Assembly (NCBI GenBank): GCA_026197075.1
Contig: JAPHQV010000021.1
Coordinates: forward strand, 1-48,665
Source: Gammaproteobacteria bacterium
GTDB taxonomy: Bacteria > Pseudomonadota > Gammaproteobacteria > DSM-19610
DNA length: 48,665 bases
Direction: 5' to 3'
Under the pieces are notes generated by a model. That model searched no databases and was not told the origin of the DNA. It saw only the letters and a program-made list of their open reading frames with translations. Each line of letters starts with the position of its first letter. The first letter of the stretch is position 1. The position numbers were made by a program, and so were the translations under genes. Shown here in pieces: positions 23,920 to 47,402 of the stretch.

Positions 23920-24771
23920 ATGTTCATGAACAACCCCTTTTCGGAGCTTTCGGCATCCATATCACCCACGGTTATGCAGGGTTATGTCATCTTGATGGTC
24001 CTGCTGGTGATCGGTGGAACAGTACTCGACATGATGCATAAGAAAAGCGCTCAGTACTTTTTCGAAAACGCGAAAAAAGCGAAGAAGAGCGCAAAACGCA
24101 CCGTGAGTACCGGCGAAAAAGCCTCCATTGCAGTCAAGGTCCTGGCTAACGAAGTATTAACCTCTGGCGAATTCTGCAATACCAGACGCAGGCTTTCTCA
24201 CCTGTTGACCATGTACGGCTTCATTATATTCGTGGTTACCACTGCCATTATGATCTTCGGCTATCCGACGCCCGCGACCGCCACCCCCGCCATTCTGCCG
24301 CAACTTTGGCATATCGGCGCGCTGATGCTGGCTGTTGGTGGATATTGGTTCTGGTTCTTCATCCGGGTCGACGTGTCCGCGGAAGGCCTGTCCTGGTATC
24401 GCTTCGAACGAGCAGATTTGTTTATTCTGTCGCTGTTGGCCACTTCAACGTTTGCACTGCTTTGGTCCTTTACGCAGTCGAGCGGAATTGCCGGATGGTC
24501 AACCCTGTTCCTGGCGCTGTTCATCATTTCCAGCACGACTCTTTTCGCCAGCGTTCTATGGTCGAAGTTCGCCCATATGTTCTTCAAGCCCGCCGCCGCT
24601 TTCCAGAAGCGCGTTACCAGGGCCGATGGTTCGAGAGAGAATCTGCCTGCCGAATACGATCTGACGGATCCTGCGGTACAAGCCAGATTCCCGGATATCC
24701 CTGAATACATGGGCAAAAAGCCTGACTACATGGGACATGGCATCAGACGCGAACCAGCAAACCATTATTAA
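23920..24771 (+). CDS. aprM: Adenylylsulfate reductase membrane anchor AprM
   Basis: A 283-residue membrane protein with five or six hydrophobic segments (about 18-38, 97-117, 128-150, 166-186 and 194-213). The order ending in FPDIPEYMGKKPDYMG, plus its place directly before aprBA, identifies AprM, the anchor found in many sulfur-oxidising bacteria. It is thought to link AprBA to the membrane and pass electrons from sulfite oxidation to quinone, taking the place of QmoABC. A GAGG ribosome-binding site precedes the ATG at a fair distance. The gap to aprB is 38 bases. Base composition is clearly more AT-rich than in the genes to the left. Confidence 0.93.
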   Translation: MFMNNPFSELSASISPTVMQGYVILMVLLVIGGTVLDMMHKKSAQYFFENAKKAKKSAKRTVSTGEKASIAVKVLANEVLTSGEFCNTRRRLSHLLTMYGFIIFVVTTAIMIFGYPTPATATPAILPQLWHIGALMLAVGGYWFWFFIRVDVSAEGLSWYRFERADLFILSLLATSTFALLWSFTQSSGIAGWSTLFLALFIISSTTLFASVLWSKFAHMFFKPAAAFQKRVTRADGSRENLPAEYDLTDPAVQARFPDIPEYMGKKPDYMGHGIRREPANHY

Positions 24772-24809
24772 CACCGATTTAACTTTTACTTAAGTAAAGG
24801 AAGAAAATT

Positions 24810-25292
24810 ATGCCAACTTTTGTATATATGACTCGTTGCGATGGTTGCGGACAGTGCGTTGATATCTGCCCATCCGACATCATGCACATCGATAAAACCC
24901 TTCGTCGCGCTTACAACATTGAACCCAACATGTGTTGGGAATGTTACTCCTGTGTAAAAGCCTGCCCGCACCATGCCATTGATGTACGTGGTTATGCCGA
25001 TTTCGCCCCGCTGGGCCACTCGGTACGCGTACACCGTGACGAGGAAAAAGGCACGATTGCCTGGCGCATCAAGTTCCGTAACGGCAAAAAAGACATGGAA
25101 CTGCTGGCGCCCATCACGACCAAACCGTGGGGCACAGGCTATCCCGATTTAGCTCAGGCACCTACGCCAAGCAAAGAAATGCGTAACAGTGAGCTACTGT
25201 TTAACGAACCCAAGTATGTGCGCATGGATGACGGCGATTTGCATACGCTGGAATCAAATGGCCTCGAAATTAAAGAAGGGGTGTATTACTAA
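24810..25292 (+). CDS. aprB: Adenylylsulfate reductase beta subunit
   Basis: A 160-residue iron-sulfur protein carrying two [4Fe-4S] clusters. The cysteines are C10, C13, C16 and C20 (TRCDGCGQCVDICP), and C42, C45, C48 and C52 (NMCWECYSCVKACP). The C-terminal part from about residue 65 (RVHRDEEKGTIAWRIKFRNG and on) is the tail that wraps around AprA. It carries electrons between the FAD of AprA and the membrane partner. AAAGGAAG precedes the ATG. Its stop overlaps the aprA start (TAATGG), so the subunits are co-translated. Length and motifs are normal. Confidence 0.97.
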   Translation: MPTFVYMTRCDGCGQCVDICPSDIMHIDKTLRRAYNIEPNMCWECYSCVKACPHHAIDVRGYADFAPLGHSVRVHRDEEKGTIAWRIKFRNGKKDMELLAPITTKPWGTGYPDLAQAPTPSKEMRNSELLFNEPKYVRMDDGDLHTLESNGLEIKEGVYY

Positions 25293-27199
25293 TGGCCTAC
25301 AAGACAATTATTGAAGACGATATCGATATCCTGGTGGCCGGCGCCGGCCTCGGCGGCACCGGCGCCGCCTTCGAAGCAAGATATTGGGGCAAAGACAAAA
25401 AGATCGTCATTGCCGAAAAAGCCAATATTGATCGTTCGGGTGCAGTCGCCCAGGGCCTGTATGCCATCAACTGTTACATGGGTACCCGCTTCGGCGAGAA
25501 CAACCCGGAAGATCACGTACGTTATGCACGTATCGACTTGATGGGTATGGTGCGCGAAGATCTGGCATTCGATATGGCGCGTCATGTTGACTCCACAGTT
25601 CACAACTTCGAAGACTGGGGTCTGCCGATTATGCGCAACACGAAGACCGGCGCGTATCTGCGTGAAGGTCGCTGGCAGATCATGATTCATGGTGAATCAT
25701 ACAAGCCTATCGTTGCCGAAGCCGCCAAGAAATCAGCGGATAAGGTCTTCAACCGTGTCTGCCTAACCCATCTGTTGATGGATGATGCTAAAGAGAACCG
25801 CGTCGCGGGTGCTGTTGGTTTCAACGTACGTACCGGTAACTACCACGTATTCAAAGCAAAGACTGTTATCTGTGGCGCCGGTGGCGCGTCCAACATCTTC
25901 AAACCACGTTCAGTGGGTGAAGGCGCAGGTCGTGTCTGGTACGCACCCTGGTCATCGGGTTCTGCTTATGGTCTTATGATCGAAGCTGGCGCGAAAATGA
26001 CACAGATGGAAAATCGTATCGTACTGGCCCGTTTCAAAGACGGTTATGGCCCGGTTGGTGCTTACTTCCTGCATCTTAAGACCTATACCCAAAATGCTTA
26101 CGGCGAAGAGTACGAATCCAAGTGGTTCCCAGCTCTGCAAGAAATGGTCGGTAAAGAATACCTGGATCCGGAAGCGTCTCACACGACTCACCGTCCAATT
26201 CCAACCTGTTTGCGTAACCATGCCATCATCAACGAAGTGAATGCGGGCCGTGGTCCGATTCACATGGTGACCATGGAAGCCTTCCAGGATCCGCATCTCG
26301 AAGAAATTGGCTGGCACAACTTCCTCGGTATGACGGTTGGTCAGGCGGTACTCTGGGCTGCAACTGACGTGGATCCGAAGTACGAGAACCCTGAATTAAC
26401 CACTTCCGAGCCCTATGTCATGGGTTCACACGCAACCGGTTGTGGTGCATGGTGCTCAGGTCCTGAAGACGTCTCACCGCCGGAGTACTACTGGGGCTAT
26501 AACCGCATGACCACCATTGAAGGTCTGTTTGGTGCAGGTGACGCTGTCGGTGGTACACCGCACGCATTCTCATCAGGCTCTTTCACTGAAGGTCGTCTGG
26601 CTGCCAAGGCTGCCTGTAAGTACATCGACGATGGCAAGGCCGAAGGCATCCGGGTTTCGAACGAGCAGATTGAACGCCGTAGAAAAGAAATCTACAAGCC
26701 TTTGGAAACCTACACTGTAAACCGTAACGAAATTGTTGCTGGTTCTGTTAACCCGAACTACATCAACCCGCGTCAGGGTCTGGATCGTTTGCAGAAGCTG
26801 ATGGATGAGTATTGTGGTGGTTTCGGTGTTAACTACATGACCAACGACAAGCTGCTCCACATCGGTCTCAAGAAGATGAAGGCGCTTGAGGAAGATCTGG
26901 ATAAAGTTGCTGCTTCAGATATCCATGAACTGTTACGTGCATGGGAACTGAAACATCGCTTCCTGACTTCCGAGAGTGTATTCCAGCACACCCTGTTCCG
27001 TAAGGAGACTCGTTGGCCTGGTTATTACTACCGTGGTGATGCCATGAAGCTGGATGATGAGAACTGGCACGTATTGACCGTTTCTCGTCGTGATCCCAAA
27101 ACTGGCGAATACACCATGGAGAAGGCACCTCTGTATCACCTGGTAGGTGATATCGAGGATAAAGACCTGGCTAAGCTGAAAGCGGAAGGACACCACTAA
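25292..27199 (+). CDS. aprA: Adenylylsulfate reductase alpha subunit
   Basis: A 635-residue flavoprotein of the fumarate reductase/succinate dehydrogenase superfamily. The FAD-binding AGAGLGGTG is at residues 16-24 and ANIDRSGAVAQGLYAINCY near 48. Other AprA marks are FEDWGLPI, MVTMEAFQDP, CGAWCSGPEDVSPPEYYWGYNRMTT and GGTPHAFSSGSFTEGR. With AprB it joins sulfite and AMP to APS in the oxidative direction; ATP sulfurylase would then release sulfate but is not in this window. Codon use is regular and AT-leaning, fitting high expression. A strong hairpin follows the stop. AprMBA without qmo genes is the arrangement typical of sulfur oxidisers. Confidence 0.97.
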   Translation: MAYKTIIEDDIDILVAGAGLGGTGAAFEARYWGKDKKIVIAEKANIDRSGAVAQGLYAINCYMGTRFGENNPEDHVRYARIDLMGMVREDLAFDMARHVDSTVHNFEDWGLPIMRNTKTGAYLREGRWQIMIHGESYKPIVAEAAKKSADKVFNRVCLTHLLMDDAKENRVAGAVGFNVRTGNYHVFKAKTVICGAGGASNIFKPRSVGEGAGRVWYAPWSSGSAYGLMIEAGAKMTQMENRIVLARFKDGYGPVGAYFLHLKTYTQNAYGEEYESKWFPALQEMVGKEYLDPEASHTTHRPIPTCLRNHAIINEVNAGRGPIHMVTMEAFQDPHLEEIGWHNFLGMTVGQAVLWAATDVDPKYENPELTTSEPYVMGSHATGCGAWCSGPEDVSPPEYYWGYNRMTTIEGLFGAGDAVGGTPHAFSSGSFTEGRLAAKAACKYIDDGKAEGIRVSNEQIERRRKEIYKPLETYTVNRNEIVAGSVNPNYINPRQGLDRLQKLMDEYCGGFGVNYMTNDKLLHIGLKKMKALEEDLDKVAASDIHELLRAWELKHRFLTSESVFQHTLFRKETRWPGYYYRGDAMKLDDENWHVLTVSRRDPKTGEYTMEKAPLYHLVGDIEDKDLAKLKAEGHH

Positions 27200-27200
27200 A

Positions 27201-27257
27201 GCAAATAAATGCCTGATTTACTGTAATTGTAAATCAGGCTATTTATGATTTATTTGC
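27201..27257 (+). terminator. Nested hairpin terminator after aprA
   Basis: GCCTGATTTAC (27211-27221) and GTAAATCAGGC (27229-27239) form a perfect 11-base stem with a seven-base loop. A second, outer pair, GCAAATAAAT (27201-27210) with ATTTATTTGC (27248-27257), can enclose it. A T-rich stretch follows. It probably ends or thins out the aprMBA transcript. Confidence 0.8.
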
Positions 27258-27375
27258 ATTAATAAAGGACTGACATATTTTGTGTTGGTCCTTTTTTTTC
27301 TACGCTATGAGTGGTTTTAATCGCGCATTAGCCTTGAAAAAACATAACCGTTATTTAATGGATTTTTTGGTTATT

Positions 27376-27726
27376 ATGAATATCATTGAAAAAACTGATG
27401 AAGAGATTCTAGAGTTGGCGCATCCAATGTGGGCTGATCTTGTCAAGTACTCAAATGAAGGGAATTACGGTGCTTTCACGCGTAATTTTTCGTCTTCACT
27501 TATTCAGGGTGCAAACGAAATTGAAATGGGTAAGCAGTTTGCAAGGAGCGATCTGGCGAAAAACCTGTCAGAAGATTACACCTATCTTGGCATGATACGC
27601 CGAGGTGAATATGTCACTGTTCTGTATAAAGTGATTAACAAAAAGAATAAAGGTGAATGGTTGGGCCGGTTGGTGCTCGGTTATGAGAAAGACAGAGTCA
27701 GAATCTTTGGTGCTACTTTGTTTTAA
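27376..27726 (+). CDS. Hypothetical protein downstream of aprA
   Basis: A small protein, 116 residues from the ATG at 27376; other starts at 27280, 27307 and 27358 are open, and no ribosome-binding site settles it. The sequence runs from a helix (EEILELAHPMWADLVKYSNE) into NYGAFTRNFSSSLIQ and then alternating strands (EYVTVLYKVINKKNKG, WLGRLVLGYEKDRVRIFGATLF). This layout resembles small cystatin/NTF2-like folds such as DUF3887, but I cannot name a family. AT-rich like the apr genes, it may form a unit with the SlyD-like and TPR genes that follow after 47 bases. No signal peptide if it starts at 27376. Confidence 0.6.
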   Translation: MNIIEKTDEEILELAHPMWADLVKYSNEGNYGAFTRNFSSSLIQGANEIEMGKQFARSDLAKNLSEDYTYLGMIRRGEYVTVLYKVINKKNKGEWLGRLVLGYEKDRVRIFGATLF

Positions 27727-27773
27727 GGTAGACTGTTTTATTGCGGCATAAGCTGCAGCAGGTTTTATTAGAT

Positions 27774-28283
27774 ATGACAGATATCATTGAAGACAAAAAA
27801 TTCGTTGAACTGAATTATAAGGTCGTCGATGACAAAACCGGCGATGTGCTGGTCACTGTAGACTATCCCCTGGGTTATGTGCACGGTGTCAACGATGTAA
27901 TGTCAGAAGAAGTGGCCAAGCATTTGTATGGTAAAAAAGTCGGTGACATCATCGAAGTGCCGATTGATACCAAGTTGTTATATGGCGAAAGAGACGAATC
28001 ACTGGTGTTTACTGATCACATCGACAATGTTCCCGAAGAGTTTCGAGAGATCGGCATGACCATCACCATGGAAAATGAAAAAGGTGAACCCAGAGATTTT
28101 ATCGTCACGCGTTTTGATGACAAAACATTAACAATCGATGGCAACAATCCGCTGTGTGGTAGAGACGTCACCTTTATGGTGGAAGTGTTATCTATACGCG
28201 AAGCGACCGATGAAGAAATCGAGCTTGGTGGTGCGGTTGATGCTGATCCTGAATTGCATGAAATACTCGATCGGGCACAATGA
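27774..28283 (+). CDS. FKBP-type peptidyl-prolyl isomerase (SlyD-like)
   Basis: A 169-residue protein with the SlyD-type arrangement: an FKBP half (IEDKKFVELNYKVVDDKTGDVL, VDYPLGYVHGVNDV), an inserted flap domain (KKVGDIIEVPIDTKLLYGERDESLVF...VPEEFREIGMTITMENEKGEP), then the closing DGNNPLCGRDVTFMVEVLSI. The NPL-G motif is diagnostic. SlyD-like proteins are folding helpers and metallochaperones; the histidine-rich metal tail of E. coli SlyD is absent. The ATG at 27774 gives the normal N terminus. It overlaps the TPR gene by four bases (ATGA). Its place beside apr genes suggests help in folding or cofactor loading, which is inference. Confidence 0.85.
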   Translation: MTDIIEDKKFVELNYKVVDDKTGDVLVTVDYPLGYVHGVNDVMSEEVAKHLYGKKVGDIIEVPIDTKLLYGERDESLVFTDHIDNVPEEFREIGMTITMENEKGEPRDFIVTRFDDKTLTIDGNNPLCGRDVTFMVEVLSIREATDEEIELGGAVDADPELHEILDRAQ

Positions 28284-29308
28284 AATACTCAACTCCTTAT
28301 ATTTTCCATCCTGACAACAGGGCGCTGGAAACGGCAATAGCCAGGGCTGTAGCCATGCTGGGCGGCGACTTTGCCGAAGCGGCAAGGCCGGATACCGGCG
28401 TGACCACAGCGGATAATTTTCTGCACACGCGTGGCAATTTTGAACAACAGCGTTTCAGTACCAATATCCTGACAAGTGCACGTGAGGCGATTGAGGAGTT
28501 CCTGACTGATAACAAACGTGAACAGGCGCCCAGGGCCTGGGCGGAAACCCAGAATATCCTGGGTAATATCCTGGCGGCAATGGCTCAGCAGCAACACGAT
28601 ACCGCATTGTTTGAACAAGCCATCGAATGTTTTAACCATGCACTGGAAGAATTCAGCCAGGCGGATTCGCCGCTGGATTGGGCGGAGACACAGGCCAACC
28701 TGGGTACGGCGCTGCAGGCATTGGGTAGACTGCAGTCTGATACAAAATGTCTGCATAAATCAGTTGATGCTTATACATCCGCATTACTGACGTATTCAAA
28801 AAAAGAAACTCCGGAACAATGGAAACTGGTCATGCTGCAACTGGGTGCGACTTTACATACCTACGCGACACTTTTAAAAGGTAACCGCACATTTCAGAAA
28901 TCTGTTGTTGCCTATAAGAATGCCATAGCTGAACTCGATGCCGATAACTACCCGTTTGAGTTAACGGCCGCGCACAATAATTGTGGCGCTGTGCTGCATA
29001 ATCTGGCTGAATCTGAAGGAAATGCTGAGCGCCTGCAAGAGGCGATACGGTCATACCAGACCGCGTGGCAAGTCTGCATGGAGCAACAACAGCCGATTCA
29101 CCTGGCAGTGCTTTGCCGGGTCAATAAGACCACTGCACAAAGCTGTCTGGCTGAGCTAACCCAGGATACTGCTCTTGCTGATGAAGTGGCAGATGAATTT
29201 GAATTGATTATTGAGTGCTTTCCGCATGCGCTGCAACCACTGTGTTTAAAACATTGTGCGGAACGGCTGAACAAGATGCGGACAATGGCAGCAGCGGCTT
29301 CTGCCTGA
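28280..29308 (+). CDS. TPR-like repeat protein
   Basis: A 342-residue soluble protein made of repeated helix pairs of about 45 residues. Recurring blocks are RAWAETQNILGNILAAMA, DWAETQANLGTALQALG, QWKLVMLQLGATLHTYA and ELTAAHNNCGAVLHNLA, each followed by an F-x-x-A/S-V/I-E/A-x-Y/F helix. This pattern is that of tetratricopeptide-type repeats with the AW-E-Q-NLG signature seen in many bacterial TPR proteins. It should serve as a protein-binding scaffold. It begins within the stop of the SlyD-like gene, so both are made together. No signal peptide or membrane segment. The partner is unknown; Apr proteins are possible. Confidence 0.75.
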   Translation: MKYSTPYIFHPDNRALETAIARAVAMLGGDFAEAARPDTGVTTADNFLHTRGNFEQQRFSTNILTSAREAIEEFLTDNKREQAPRAWAETQNILGNILAAMAQQQHDTALFEQAIECFNHALEEFSQADSPLDWAETQANLGTALQALGRLQSDTKCLHKSVDAYTSALLTYSKKETPEQWKLVMLQLGATLHTYATLLKGNRTFQKSVVAYKNAIAELDADNYPFELTAAHNNCGAVLHNLAESEGNAERLQEAIRSYQTAWQVCMEQQQPIHLAVLCRVNKTTAQSCLAELTQDTALADEVADEFELIIECFPHALQPLCLKHCAERLNKMRTMAAAASA

Positions 29309-29336
29309 CAAGTTAATTAGGAAGAGGGTTTCCGAG

Positions 29337-29750
29337 TTGTCGTCTGAAGAAAAACAGGAAAAAAAACGCGATCCGAATAATCCATGCCTGTTTTGTAAGG
29401 ATCCGCGCGGGGTGAGCTTGAATAACGAACTGGCTTACAGCGCGCGTGATACTTACGCAGTGAGCCCGGGGCATACCCTGATCATCCCGCGTCGTCATGT
29501 CGCCAGCTTTTTCGACCTGACGCCCGATGAGATCAACGCCTGTATGGAGCTGGTCAATGAGGAGCGCAATGCGCTGGATGAGGAACTTAAGCCGGATGGC
29601 TACAACATCGGCGTGAACGTGGGGCCGGCAGCCGGACAGAGTATCTTGCATGCCCATATTCACCTGATTCCGCGTTATAAGGGTGATGTCGAAAACCCGC
29701 AGGGCGGGGTGCGCCATGTGCTCCCTGAAAAGGCGTATTACACACGGTAG
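29337..29750 (+). CDS. HIT family hydrolase
   Basis: A 137-residue histidine-triad protein with H105, H107 and H109 in SILHAHIHLIPRY, the motif that hydrolyses nucleotide phosphoramidates or adenylates. C17 and C20 (NPCLFCKD) with a later H can bind zinc, as in Hint/Fhit-like members. The start is TTG at 29337, with GGAAGAGGG upstream; no ATG is in place. It follows the TPR gene after 28 bases. In an APS-making cell an adenylyl-sulfate or adenylate hydrolase is a tempting role, since HIT proteins such as Fhit can act on APS in vitro, but this is speculation here. Confidence 0.88.
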   Translation: MSSEEKQEKKRDPNNPCLFCKDPRGVSLNNELAYSARDTYAVSPGHTLIIPRRHVASFFDLTPDEINACMELVNEERNALDEELKPDGYNIGVNVGPAAGQSILHAHIHLIPRYKGDVENPQGGVRHVLPEKAYYTR

Positions 29751-29840
29751 TTAGTTAATGTATAATTTCGTCAGTATTAGTGGGAGGGGCTGGCATAGCT
29801 TTAAATTCCCTCCATTTTCAATTAGTTAGGAGATAAGAAT

Positions 29841-30005
29841 ATGAGCGCTGCACCATTTACCAGACCTAAGGTTCCCGAAGGTGTCACAGAGTATGTGACA
29901 ACCACCCAGAAAGAGATCGTACCTGGCAAGTTTCATGTTGGTTATACCACCACGTGGAAACCCTTCCAGAAAGAAGTGCCTTACCAGACCCCCAAAAAGC
30001 CTTAA
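29841..30005 (+). CDS. Small conserved-looking 54-residue protein
   Basis: A short gene with an excellent ribosome-binding site (AGGAGATAAGAAT before the ATG) and a strong terminator 64 bases after the stop. The product is soluble and rich in Thr, Lys, Pro and Tyr: it begins MSAAPFTRPKVPEGVTEYV and ends WKPFQKEVPYQTPKKP. There is no signal peptide, cysteine or membrane segment. I do not recognise a family. Position at the end of the apr-linked cluster and clean expression signals make it likely to be real. It could be a small partner of one of the complexes encoded upstream. Confidence 0.7.
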   Translation: MSAAPFTRPKVPEGVTEYVTTTQKEIVPGKFHVGYTTTWKPFQKEVPYQTPKKP

Positions 30006-30068
30006 GACCAGAAGCCTTAAGACAGTTCGCCGCGGGGCCCTGCAAGGGTCTTGCGGCGGCTCAGTCTG

Positions 30069-30093
30069 AAAAGCCCGTGATACGGGCTTTTTT
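30069..30093 (+). terminator. Rho-independent terminator
   Basis: AAAAGCCCGT and ACGGGCTTTT form a perfect 10-base stem around GAT, running into six T. It ends the cluster that starts with aprM or with the gene at 27376. Its mirrored A run could also serve the DUF4279 gene coming from the right. Confidence 0.9.
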
Positions 30094-30128
30094 ATTGCCC
30101 GTTATTTGTGAAATACAATGGTTAACGC

Positions 30129-30545
30129 TTAAACACGCTCAGACAGTTTGTAATCCACATTAATAAACGCGCCAATGTCCGCCATGAAGCGGGTTGTTCT
30201 GCCGCCAAAGCCCACATCCGGACAGGTCTCATCTTTATCGATCGATAACACCAGCTCCACGCCGAGTCTGGGCGATAAATTGTGGCTCTTAATCACCTGC
30301 AGGATTTTTTCCTTGGCCGGTTCTATCTGCTTGAGGAGATTATCCGTTAATTTATAAACGTCCACTTCATCTGTAACCGTTTCCGTTGATAACTCCCATG
30401 AACTGATCACGGGTTTGTCCAAACCACTGGAGGCACCGGCAGCATTGATTGATGTAGGTTGTATGTCGAGTAGGCGCGTGATGTCGTCGGGATTGAAGTG
30501 ATACCCACACAGTGCGAAGTAGGCCCGTGCTTGATTGGATGCCAA
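30129..30545 (-). CDS. DUF4279 domain protein
   Basis: A 138-residue soluble protein with the DUF4279 pattern: ARAYFALCGYHFNPDDITRLLDIQPTSI at the N terminus, SSWELSTETVTDEVDVYKLTDNLLKQIEP in the middle, and VELVLSIDKDETCPDVGFGGRTTRFMADIGAFINVDYK at the end (each a part of longer conserved blocks). The family has no known function. AGGAGGACGAC lies just before the ATG. It is convergent with the small protein gene and sits at the right edge of the AT-rich segment. Single gene, no visible partners. Confidence 0.75.
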   Translation of the reverse strand: MASNQARAYFALCGYHFNPDDITRLLDIQPTSINAAGASSGLDKPVISSWELSTETVTDEVDVYKLTDNLLKQIEPAKEKILQVIKSHNLSPRLGVELVLSIDKDETCPDVGFGGRTTRFMADIGAFINVDYKLSERV

Positions 30546-41383: not shown

Positions 41384-41459
41384 TTCAGCTCTCGTCATTG
41401 CGGGGTTGGAAGTACAACGAGGGCGTGCGGGTACCGCGACGGCCTTCGTCAAACCGTCG

Positions 41460-41662
41460 CCCCTCTGTCCCGTGACCTGAGAGTGTAGGCGCTGCCGCAG
41501 GATGCGGGGCCTCTCCCCTTCGGTGGGCCAGCACAGGCTGACCGCTCTCCAGAGCCGACATGGGATCGGATCCCCCACCGCGACAGTTCTTCTGCCTGAG
41601 CGTTTCCGGGCGAGTTGCGCCTTCGGCGGCCGGGTAAACCGGCTCTCTCCCGCCGCGGTGGT
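41460..41662 (-). ncRNA. Tandem glycine riboswitch
   Basis: Read on the minus strand there are two glycine aptamers in a row. The first (about 41662-41580) has CGGGAGAGAGCC, CGCCGAAGGCGCAA and CTCAGGCAGAAGAACTG. The second (about 41557-41460) has GGCTCTGGAGAGCGGTC, CCACCGAAGGGGAGAGGCC and CTCTCAGGTCACGGGACAGAGGGG, given here in pieces. GGAGAG, CCGAAGG and CTCAGG-ACAGA are the conserved core. It lies about 77 bases before gcvT. Tandem glycine riboswitches switch gcv genes on when glycine is abundant. Confidence 0.92.
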
Positions 41663-47205: not shown

Positions 47206-47402
47206 ATTCAGGCATCCCCTGCCGTGTTCGTTAGCGGGTCGTCACTCCCTTGAGCCTAAGTACGATCCCCGGGGACGAGTCTGTTCGGTGTCCGTGCGCA
47301 GGTCCGCCTGGTGCGGAAAGCCTAACGATACCGGCGTTGTCCCCCCTTGAACCGCTGGTTCAAGGCCCACGCCCCGCGACGGCATGTGCGGAGGATGCCT
47401 CC
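47206..47402 (+). ncRNA. ssrS: 6S RNA
   Basis: The stretch between zapA and fau folds as 6S RNA. The closing stem pairs GGCATCC (47211-47217) with GGATGCC (47393-47399). Conserved blocks seen are CTGCCGTGTTCG, CTCCCTTGAGCC, GGTGCGGAAAGCCTAACGATACC, CCTTGAACCGCTGGTTCAAGG and GCGACGGCAT, each with a clear E. coli counterpart. A TATACT -10 lies at 47187-47192. 6S RNA binds sigma-70 polymerase in stationary phase; the zapA-ssrS-fau order is the conserved one. Ends are approximate. Confidence 0.93.

Follow-up and report, generated by a model that had tools for sequence, protein, structure and literature searches.

A conserved 54-residue protein tied to AprM-type APS reductase and often encoded behind a pseudoknotted leader RNA

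Results

A 54-residue gene in the apr cluster

We analysed a stretch of 48,665 nucleotides (the window; contig JAPHQV010000021.1, assembly GCA_026197075.1, Gammaproteobacteria bacterium), in which an apr cluster on the forward strand leads from a membrane-anchor gene through both subunits of APS reductase to the gene of a basic 54-residue protein, here called p54. The genes and the signals around p54 are listed below, with counts that refer to the 80 p54 loci described in the next section.

23920..24771, + strand: aprM, membrane anchor, named after the literature from its place before aprBA; weak similarity to QmoC
24810..25292, + strand: aprB, APS reductase beta subunit (TIGR02060)
25292..27199, + strand: aprA, alpha subunit of an AprM-type (lineage I) APS reductase (TIGR02061 and the AprA tree)
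27376..27726, + strand: 116-residue protein, fold predicted as NTF2-like, present in nearly all p54-type apr loci
27741..28283, + strand: FKBP/SlyD-like protein, start uncertain (NF008008 below cut-off), near-constant in p54-type apr loci
28280..29308, + strand: TPR protein (domain match), in 65 of 80 p54 loci
29337..29750, + strand: HIT-domain protein (PF01230), the usual upstream neighbour of p54, in 70 of 80 p54 loci
29828..29832, + strand: Shine-Dalgarno sequence AGGAG of p54, 8 nt ahead of the ATG
29841..30005, + strand: p54, basic 54-residue protein with a calculated pI of 9.6 (open reading frame, homologues, dN/dS)
30020..30094, + strand: intrinsic terminator of p54, made of two 3' hairpins with a T run in the second (RNA folding)
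30129..30545, - strand: DUF4279 protein (PF14106), convergent neighbour, in 65 of 80 p54 loci

A sequence-only reading of this DNA had singled out the p54 frame at 29841-30005 as an unrecognised protein with strong expression signals, and its coordinates and length were exact: the frame has 54 codons, from an ATG at 29841 to a TAA ending at 30005, and translates to MSAAPFTRPKVPEGVTEYVTTTQKEIVPGKFHVGYTTTWKPFQKEVPYQTPKKP. Threonine, lysine and proline account for 24 of the 54 residues, and cysteine and any membrane-like stretch are absent, just as that reading had described the window's p54; some relatives do contain a cysteine, mainly at one variable position. The ribosome-binding site, already called strong, recurs in the family, with AGGAG in 73 of 87 relatives and any of eight Shine-Dalgarno-like 5-mers in 81 of 87. 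The proposed terminator also stands, as folding gives a strong hairpin at 30020-30067 followed by a second one at 30068-30092 that has the T run as its 3' side (-46.8 kcal/mol), a stability that none of 200 shuffles equalled. The second hairpin is missing from the list of the consensus terminator scanner, presumably since the T run is taken up by the stem. The p54 frame is a real gene, and its high expression is plausible.

The 116-residue protein (27376-27726) was predicted with a pLDDT of 86 and had no Pfam match above cut-off; NTF2-like chains were among its best Foldseek matches, none of them at E <= 0.001. The G+C content of the apr block (window 24000-30000) is 46-52%, compared with 59-71% in the other 2-kb stretches from 6001 on, and the first 6 kb of the window are also low (50-54%). 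Acquisition of the whole block as one unit, or maintenance of a different codon usage, may account for this. Elsewhere, Rfam matches mark tandem glycine riboswitch aptamers (41455-41662, - strand) and a 6S RNA (47213-47398, + strand).

p54 is a widespread family

A protein search found p54 in 12 of 95 genomes, and a pattern scan of a named genome collection returned 408 stretches of which 405 were confirmed as p54 relatives, so that the outcome named in advance as fatal to the gene, no homologue anywhere, proved false. The titles of the confirmed loci include Thiogranum, Gallionella, Sideroxydans, Thiobacillus and many unclassified proteobacterial drafts; 80 of the 405 loci were kept for neighbour counts. 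The window's p54 has a dN/dS of 0.05-0.19 against eight relatives, and pN/pS was 0.155 over 537 pooled pairs. Moreover, 13 positions are invariant among 38 hand-chosen sequences (alignment A2), in the order P, G, T, Q, GY, T, W, K, Y, PK, P, and the C-terminal proline was present in 91 of 91 rows (three duplicates included). By these comparisons, p54 is under purifying selection and forms a widespread conserved family.

No known domain had been seen in p54, and Pfam and NCBIfam indeed gave no matching family at E up to 1. The DsrD protein has a PDB entry. A profile search of PDB chains returned a sole p54 match, to LAM4, at a chance-level E of 0.29, and homology to DsrD was not detected by it. 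The predicted structure is poor (pLDDT 66, pTM 0.32), with two short strands and no helix. Among the matches listed from the open-access literature (titles and abstract starts), no such protein or leader is described, and a p54-like protein is not mentioned in the available parts of PMC2211403, PMC3779200, PMC6397845 and PMC11406059.

Neighbours of p54 across the family

The sequence-only reading had placed p54 in an apr cluster, which is borne out by its position downstream of aprM-aprB-aprA and by apr linkage in relatives: aprA lies in the fetched stretch of 10 of the 11 first relatives, the eleventh having its contig edge beside cluster genes, and in 59 of the 80 named loci, many of the others ending early. 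The FKBP/SlyD-like gene is present in 65 of 80 p54 loci and also in the p54-less loci L147-L155, L167 and L168; it was not found in L169, L170 and L172-L174. The HIT gene is sometimes beside p54 outside the usual order of the cluster (L162-L164, L067). The DUF4279 gene takes varied positions across p54 loci, and 40 of 83 rows have TATAAT in front of it.

Of 41 fetched loci with linked aprA, 29 have p54 in the same orientation as aprA and 12 have it reversed, and p54 can lie either downstream or upstream of the apr genes. In one genome (G148) p54 and apr are on separate contigs, each well inside, and nine p54 loci without apr in the fetched stretch have no common neighbours, some of them being cut by contig ends. 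Since its orientation varies and it is retained when unlinked, p54 is not a mere operon rider. One genome (G381) has two p54 copies (L161, 11502-13202), one after the TPR gene and one after the HIT gene, with a leader match only at the second.

p54 follows one AprA lineage

We searched 370 genomes of the class (requested completeness 90%) for p54 and aprA. p54 was found in 40 of them (a p54 match in G297, E 0.0073, is excluded from this count) and aprA in 116, with scores that form two groups: p54 was present in 36 of the 45 genomes with a high-scoring, AprM-type aprA, in one of the 71 with a lower-scoring or partial aprA, and in three of the 254 without detected aprA. The one exception among the 71 (G124) has an aprA fragment with a per-position score like that of the high type, and two of the three aprA-less genomes (G162 and G062) have aprB; aprB is absent in the third (G214), whose p54 contig (L028) breaks off within cluster genes. 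Nine of the 45 genomes with high-type aprA have no p54, including the single-contig genome G320. An account of p54 loss through a phototrophic life style was rejected, none of these 45 genomes matching the photosystem family PF00124 at E <= 1e-10.

The 1050-bit limit between the two groups had been set post hoc, with the scores already seen, and we therefore built an AprA tree of 64 rows (fetched loci of at least 550 residues, 20 lower-scoring loci being picked by hand). The 11 AprM-less rows (lineage II) were separate, with a support of 100, and all 35 p54 rows fell inside one 44-row group with a support of 99. The p54 label changes six times on this tree, against a mean of 21.2 after shuffling (0 of 500 as low), which is consistent with one gain of p54 and about five losses. 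The window's apr locus fits lineage I, with aprM before aprBA and its AprA in the AprM-type clade. p54 was found in none of the 11 fetched AprM-less loci (lineage II, Qmo-type), and no p54 row falls in that clade; nine AprM-type loci of neighbouring lineages, outside the 44-row group, are without p54 as well.

In a sample of the phylum, p54 was present in 10 of 397 genomes, and aprA, sought in the nine besides the window's own, matched in all nine. Seven of these matches are full and high-scoring, G522 has an aprA fragment, and G511 has only a lower-scoring aprA, yet carries the NTF2-like and FKBP genes near p54. We also inspected 19 drafts, most of them chosen because their p54 locus shows no aprA, and ten of these 19 have no aprA above cut-off: G099 has aprB, G100 an aprA fragment, five (G104, G107, G108, G112, G113) lack both aprA over the cut-off and aprB and have p54 contigs that end beside cluster genes, and G095, G096 and G097 carry p54 without aprA over the cut-off and without aprB, the last eight all being drafts of unstated completeness. 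p54 is tied to one AprA lineage, but the nine high-type genomes that lack it and these ten drafts speak against a strict dependence.

A hint from AprB in one clade that lost p54

Seven cluster proteins were searched for columns that are kept in p54 rows and changed upon p54 loss. Only in AprB does a column change throughout the five-row p54-loss clade (L147-L151): at position 88, all 87 AprB rows of p54 genomes (some duplicates) have Lys, and all five loss-clade rows have Ile. In the otherwise conserved AprB tail, Ser149 is replaced by Asp and Leu152 by Ala in three of these five rows. The NTF2-like and FKBP proteins have one column each that is changed in three loss rows, and AprA and AprM show no shared change in the loss-clade rows. 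This gives only a hint at AprB, because it possibly reflects one event and because other loss rows and other lineages keep Lys or Arg: four other p54-loss rows retain Lys88, and among rows without an adjoining p54, those of AprM type have Lys or Arg at this position in 7 of 9 cases and those of lineage II in all 11. Homology models in the available part of PMC2211403 show an acidic loop of AprB that is peculiar to lineage I, at which docking of AprM was proposed; p54, itself basic, might dock to AprB.

A pseudoknotted leader RNA at p54

HIT and p54 matches are usually about 80-110 nt apart, and in the window this interval contains the following features.

29761..29766, + strand: -10 box TATAAT of a likely own p54 promoter; a weak -35 overlaps the 3' end of the HIT gene
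29767..29840, + strand: p54 5' leader RNA element (covariation in 72 leaders)
29770-29774 with 29790-29794, + strand: leader stem S1; an extra T29775-G29789 pair is possible
29783-29788 with 29808-29813, + strand: leader pseudoknot, GGAGGG with CCCTCC

The leader consensus reads GUCAGUU AAGU GGGAGG GGCUGAC, followed by a linker, CCUCCC and then the ribosome-binding site. A descriptor scan of 116 distinct upstream stretches, which the window entered twice, detected the stem and the pseudoknot in 58, and a descriptor score of at least 12 was reached in 54 stretches, versus 0, 1, 0, 0 and 0 in five base shuffles. One alignment (A4) was made from the 58 descriptor hits minus the duplicate L001 and L071, L077, L086, L090 and L165. 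Because the descriptor set was selected for structure, we aligned 72 leaders chosen solely by their position between HIT and p54 (A5: every such leader detected whose gap measured 31-199 nt, minus the duplicate L001), of which 49 rows besides the window's, L001 counted, overlap with the descriptor hits.

In A5, 89.0% of the cells are paired (S1 83%, pseudoknot 95%), versus 40-63% with the partners slid. Two-sided changes occur at 9 of 13 pairs, a number reached by 4 of 500 shuffles, and in 34 cells, against 14.6 after shuffling, with none of 500 shuffles as high; one pair alternates between A-U (40 rows) and G-C (10 rows). Kinship of the rows can beat shuffles without any structure, and the slid control therefore weighs more. 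This alignment shows that the p54 leader is an H-type pseudoknot of two interleaved helices with covariation. A kissing-loop stem (S2) around CCUCCC was rejected: out of 500 shuffles, 48 reached its covariation score and 223 its number of pairs with changes on both sides. In plain folding, by a program that cannot form pseudoknots, the window leader did no better than shuffles (z 0.46).

Rfam 15 gave no match over the window leader at E up to 10 or at gathering scores; the four matches at E up to 10 lie at 30027-30120, outside the leader. A covariance model of the leader sequence and stem, run on the 370 genomes, gave matches in 24 of them at E up to 0.1. Each of the 17 matches below 0.002 is no more than about 15 bases away from a p54 start, among them those at an unlinked p54 (G223) and at the second p54 copy of G381; 15 of these confident leaders belonged to the model's own alignment and two (G339, G381) were new. 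The seven other matches (E 0.008-0.095) are at chance level and none adjoins p54. Thus, under strict filters the leader was detected in 17 of 40 p54 genomes, the covariance model found no second target gene for it in the 370 genomes, and a search of p54-less loci gave no leader match.

The TATAAT is exact in 37 of the 72 aligned leaders and has at least five of its six bases in 51. The promoter scanner reports this TATAAT in the window, but finds 5 promoter-like sites versus 5.0 in shuffles; p54 likely has its own promoter. The leader is absent, as if excised, in L040, L047 and L084, all three of which keep the ribosome-binding site, and TATAAT is retained in L040 and L047 despite the loss. 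Conversely, the leader is present without TATAAT, after the TPR gene instead of HIT, in L006, L008 and L122, and its being kept without TATAAT and without a preceding HIT gene argues for an RNA rather than a promoter element. The sequence-only reading was thus right about an unrecognised small protein in the apr cluster, and overlooked its dependence on a single AprA lineage, its likely own promoter and the pseudoknotted leader.

Discussion

p54 is a real, conserved gene whose occurrence is tied to one AprA lineage and whose covarying leader is found at p54 only. We regard p54 and its relatives as a putative new family of accessory proteins of small size, whose pseudoknot leader is specific to p54. 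The explanation that we favour, at roughly even confidence, is that p54 is a small soluble accessory protein of the AprM-type (lineage I) AprBA in sulfur oxidisers, present at a controlled dose; its binding partner, its effect on the enzyme and its translational control are what we infer. Such a p54, without conserved cofactor ligands, would serve the AprM-type dissimilatory APS reductase, most likely by binding AprBA, perhaps via AprB; it would be largely extended when alone and would order upon binding, and while sulfite is being oxidised it may stabilise or activate AprBA or the contact between AprBA and AprM. The dose of p54 would be set separately from the apr genes, often through what is likely its own promoter and, in many of the relatives, through the pseudoknot leader. 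The CCUCCC of the leader has two possible pairing partners, GGGAGG in the loop and GGAG in the ribosome-binding site, as a translational switch would require; since the pseudoknot occupies CCUCCC, the alternative partner of GGAG, translation is probably controlled.

The nearest functional parallel to p54 is DsrD, a comparison of role, with no homology detected. According to the available part of PMC11406059, DsrD is a nonessential allosteric activator of DsrAB that is absent from some members and marks one direction. DsrD goes with DsrAB, whereas p54 goes with the AprM-type AprBA, often together with a pseudoknot leader, and unlike DsrD, p54 is predicted, poorly, with short strands and no helix. 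A second comparison is with AprM, which the available parts of PMC2211403 and PMC3779200 present as a proposed membrane anchor tied to lineage I and encoded with aprBA, the latter describing co-transcription of sat and aprMBA in A. vinosum and an AprM without known domain. AprM shares with p54 the tie to lineage I and the place alongside aprBA; however, it is membrane-integral and also present in the nine fetched lineage I loci without p54, whereas p54 is soluble and belongs to part of the lineage only. Leaders with an H-type pseudoknot are known from the SAM-II and preQ1 riboswitches and from the ribosomal protein S15 leader. The p54 leader resembles them in being short, with its pseudoknot just upstream of the ribosome-binding site, and differs from them in that the window leader has no Rfam match and a single target gene family was seen.

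Other roles for the protein were weighed against an accessory function at AprBA. p54 could aid in building the enzyme, as part of an assembly module with the FKBP/SlyD-like, NTF2-like and TPR proteins for AprBA or for loading of FAD and iron-sulfur clusters; this is unlikely, for while the NTF2-like and FKBP-like genes are found in nearly every apr locus with p54, and the extended, proline-rich p54 sequence would suit an adaptor, both genes are also present in the p54-less loci L147-L155, L167 and L168, which means that the module does not require p54, and p54 can stand apart from the cluster. HIT-superfamily enzymes acting on APS exist, and the HIT protein of the apr cluster may do so too. 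It is quite unlikely, all the same, that p54 is a binding partner of this HIT protein, whose reaction would be the cleavage or transfer of APS or a similar nucleotide: the HIT gene is present in 70 of 80 loci, mostly as the next gene upstream, but p54 lies beside apr without a nearby HIT gene in L129, L132, L136, L158, L159 and L166, and likewise in L188-L191, L193 and L195, and the leader is retained after the TPR gene, not HIT, in L006, L008, L122 and the genomes of L017, L019 and L136.

With its calculated pI of 9.6 and a leader found only before its own gene, p54 could be a basic RNA-binding protein that targets this leader, the apr link being a regulatory circuit without a subunit role; we hold this to be very unlikely, because many p54 genes have no detected leader and because the invariant residues are aromatic, Thr and Pro, with no recognised RNA-binding motif. 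That the leader pattern is a DNA operator of nested inverted repeats, rather than an RNA structure, is very improbable indeed. Inverted repeats would suit a protein dimer on DNA too, but the two repeats interleave, the element comes directly after the -10 box where one exists and is kept without TATAAT in L006, L008, L113 and L122, and paired changes occur at 9 of 13 pairs. Finally, the G+C of the apr block, below that of its immediate flanks, would fit a p54 that is a passenger of apr block transfer, an extremely unlikely account given the purifying selection on p54, its shuffled orientation relative to apr and its retention away from apr in G148.

Within the favoured explanation, p54 as an accessory protein of the AprM-type enzyme, a bolder version, which we consider unlikely, would make p54 the oxidative-direction counterpart of DsrD, an activator dedicated to the AprM-type enzyme, and its leader a new pseudoknot class that senses a metabolite of sulfite oxidation (APS, AMP) or p54 itself. 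If true, this would give these bacteria separate control over the final step in the oxidation to sulfate. Many lithotrophic bacteria use APS reductase to oxidise sulfite. The available part of PMC2211403 (2008) described the native electron partner of the AprM-type enzyme as unknown. p54, which follows this enzyme type and is unseen by family libraries, offers a concrete handle on that question and could be used to recognise the main AprM-type clade in genomes, and its pseudoknot leader, found at p54 only, presents a further, separate layer that can be tested.
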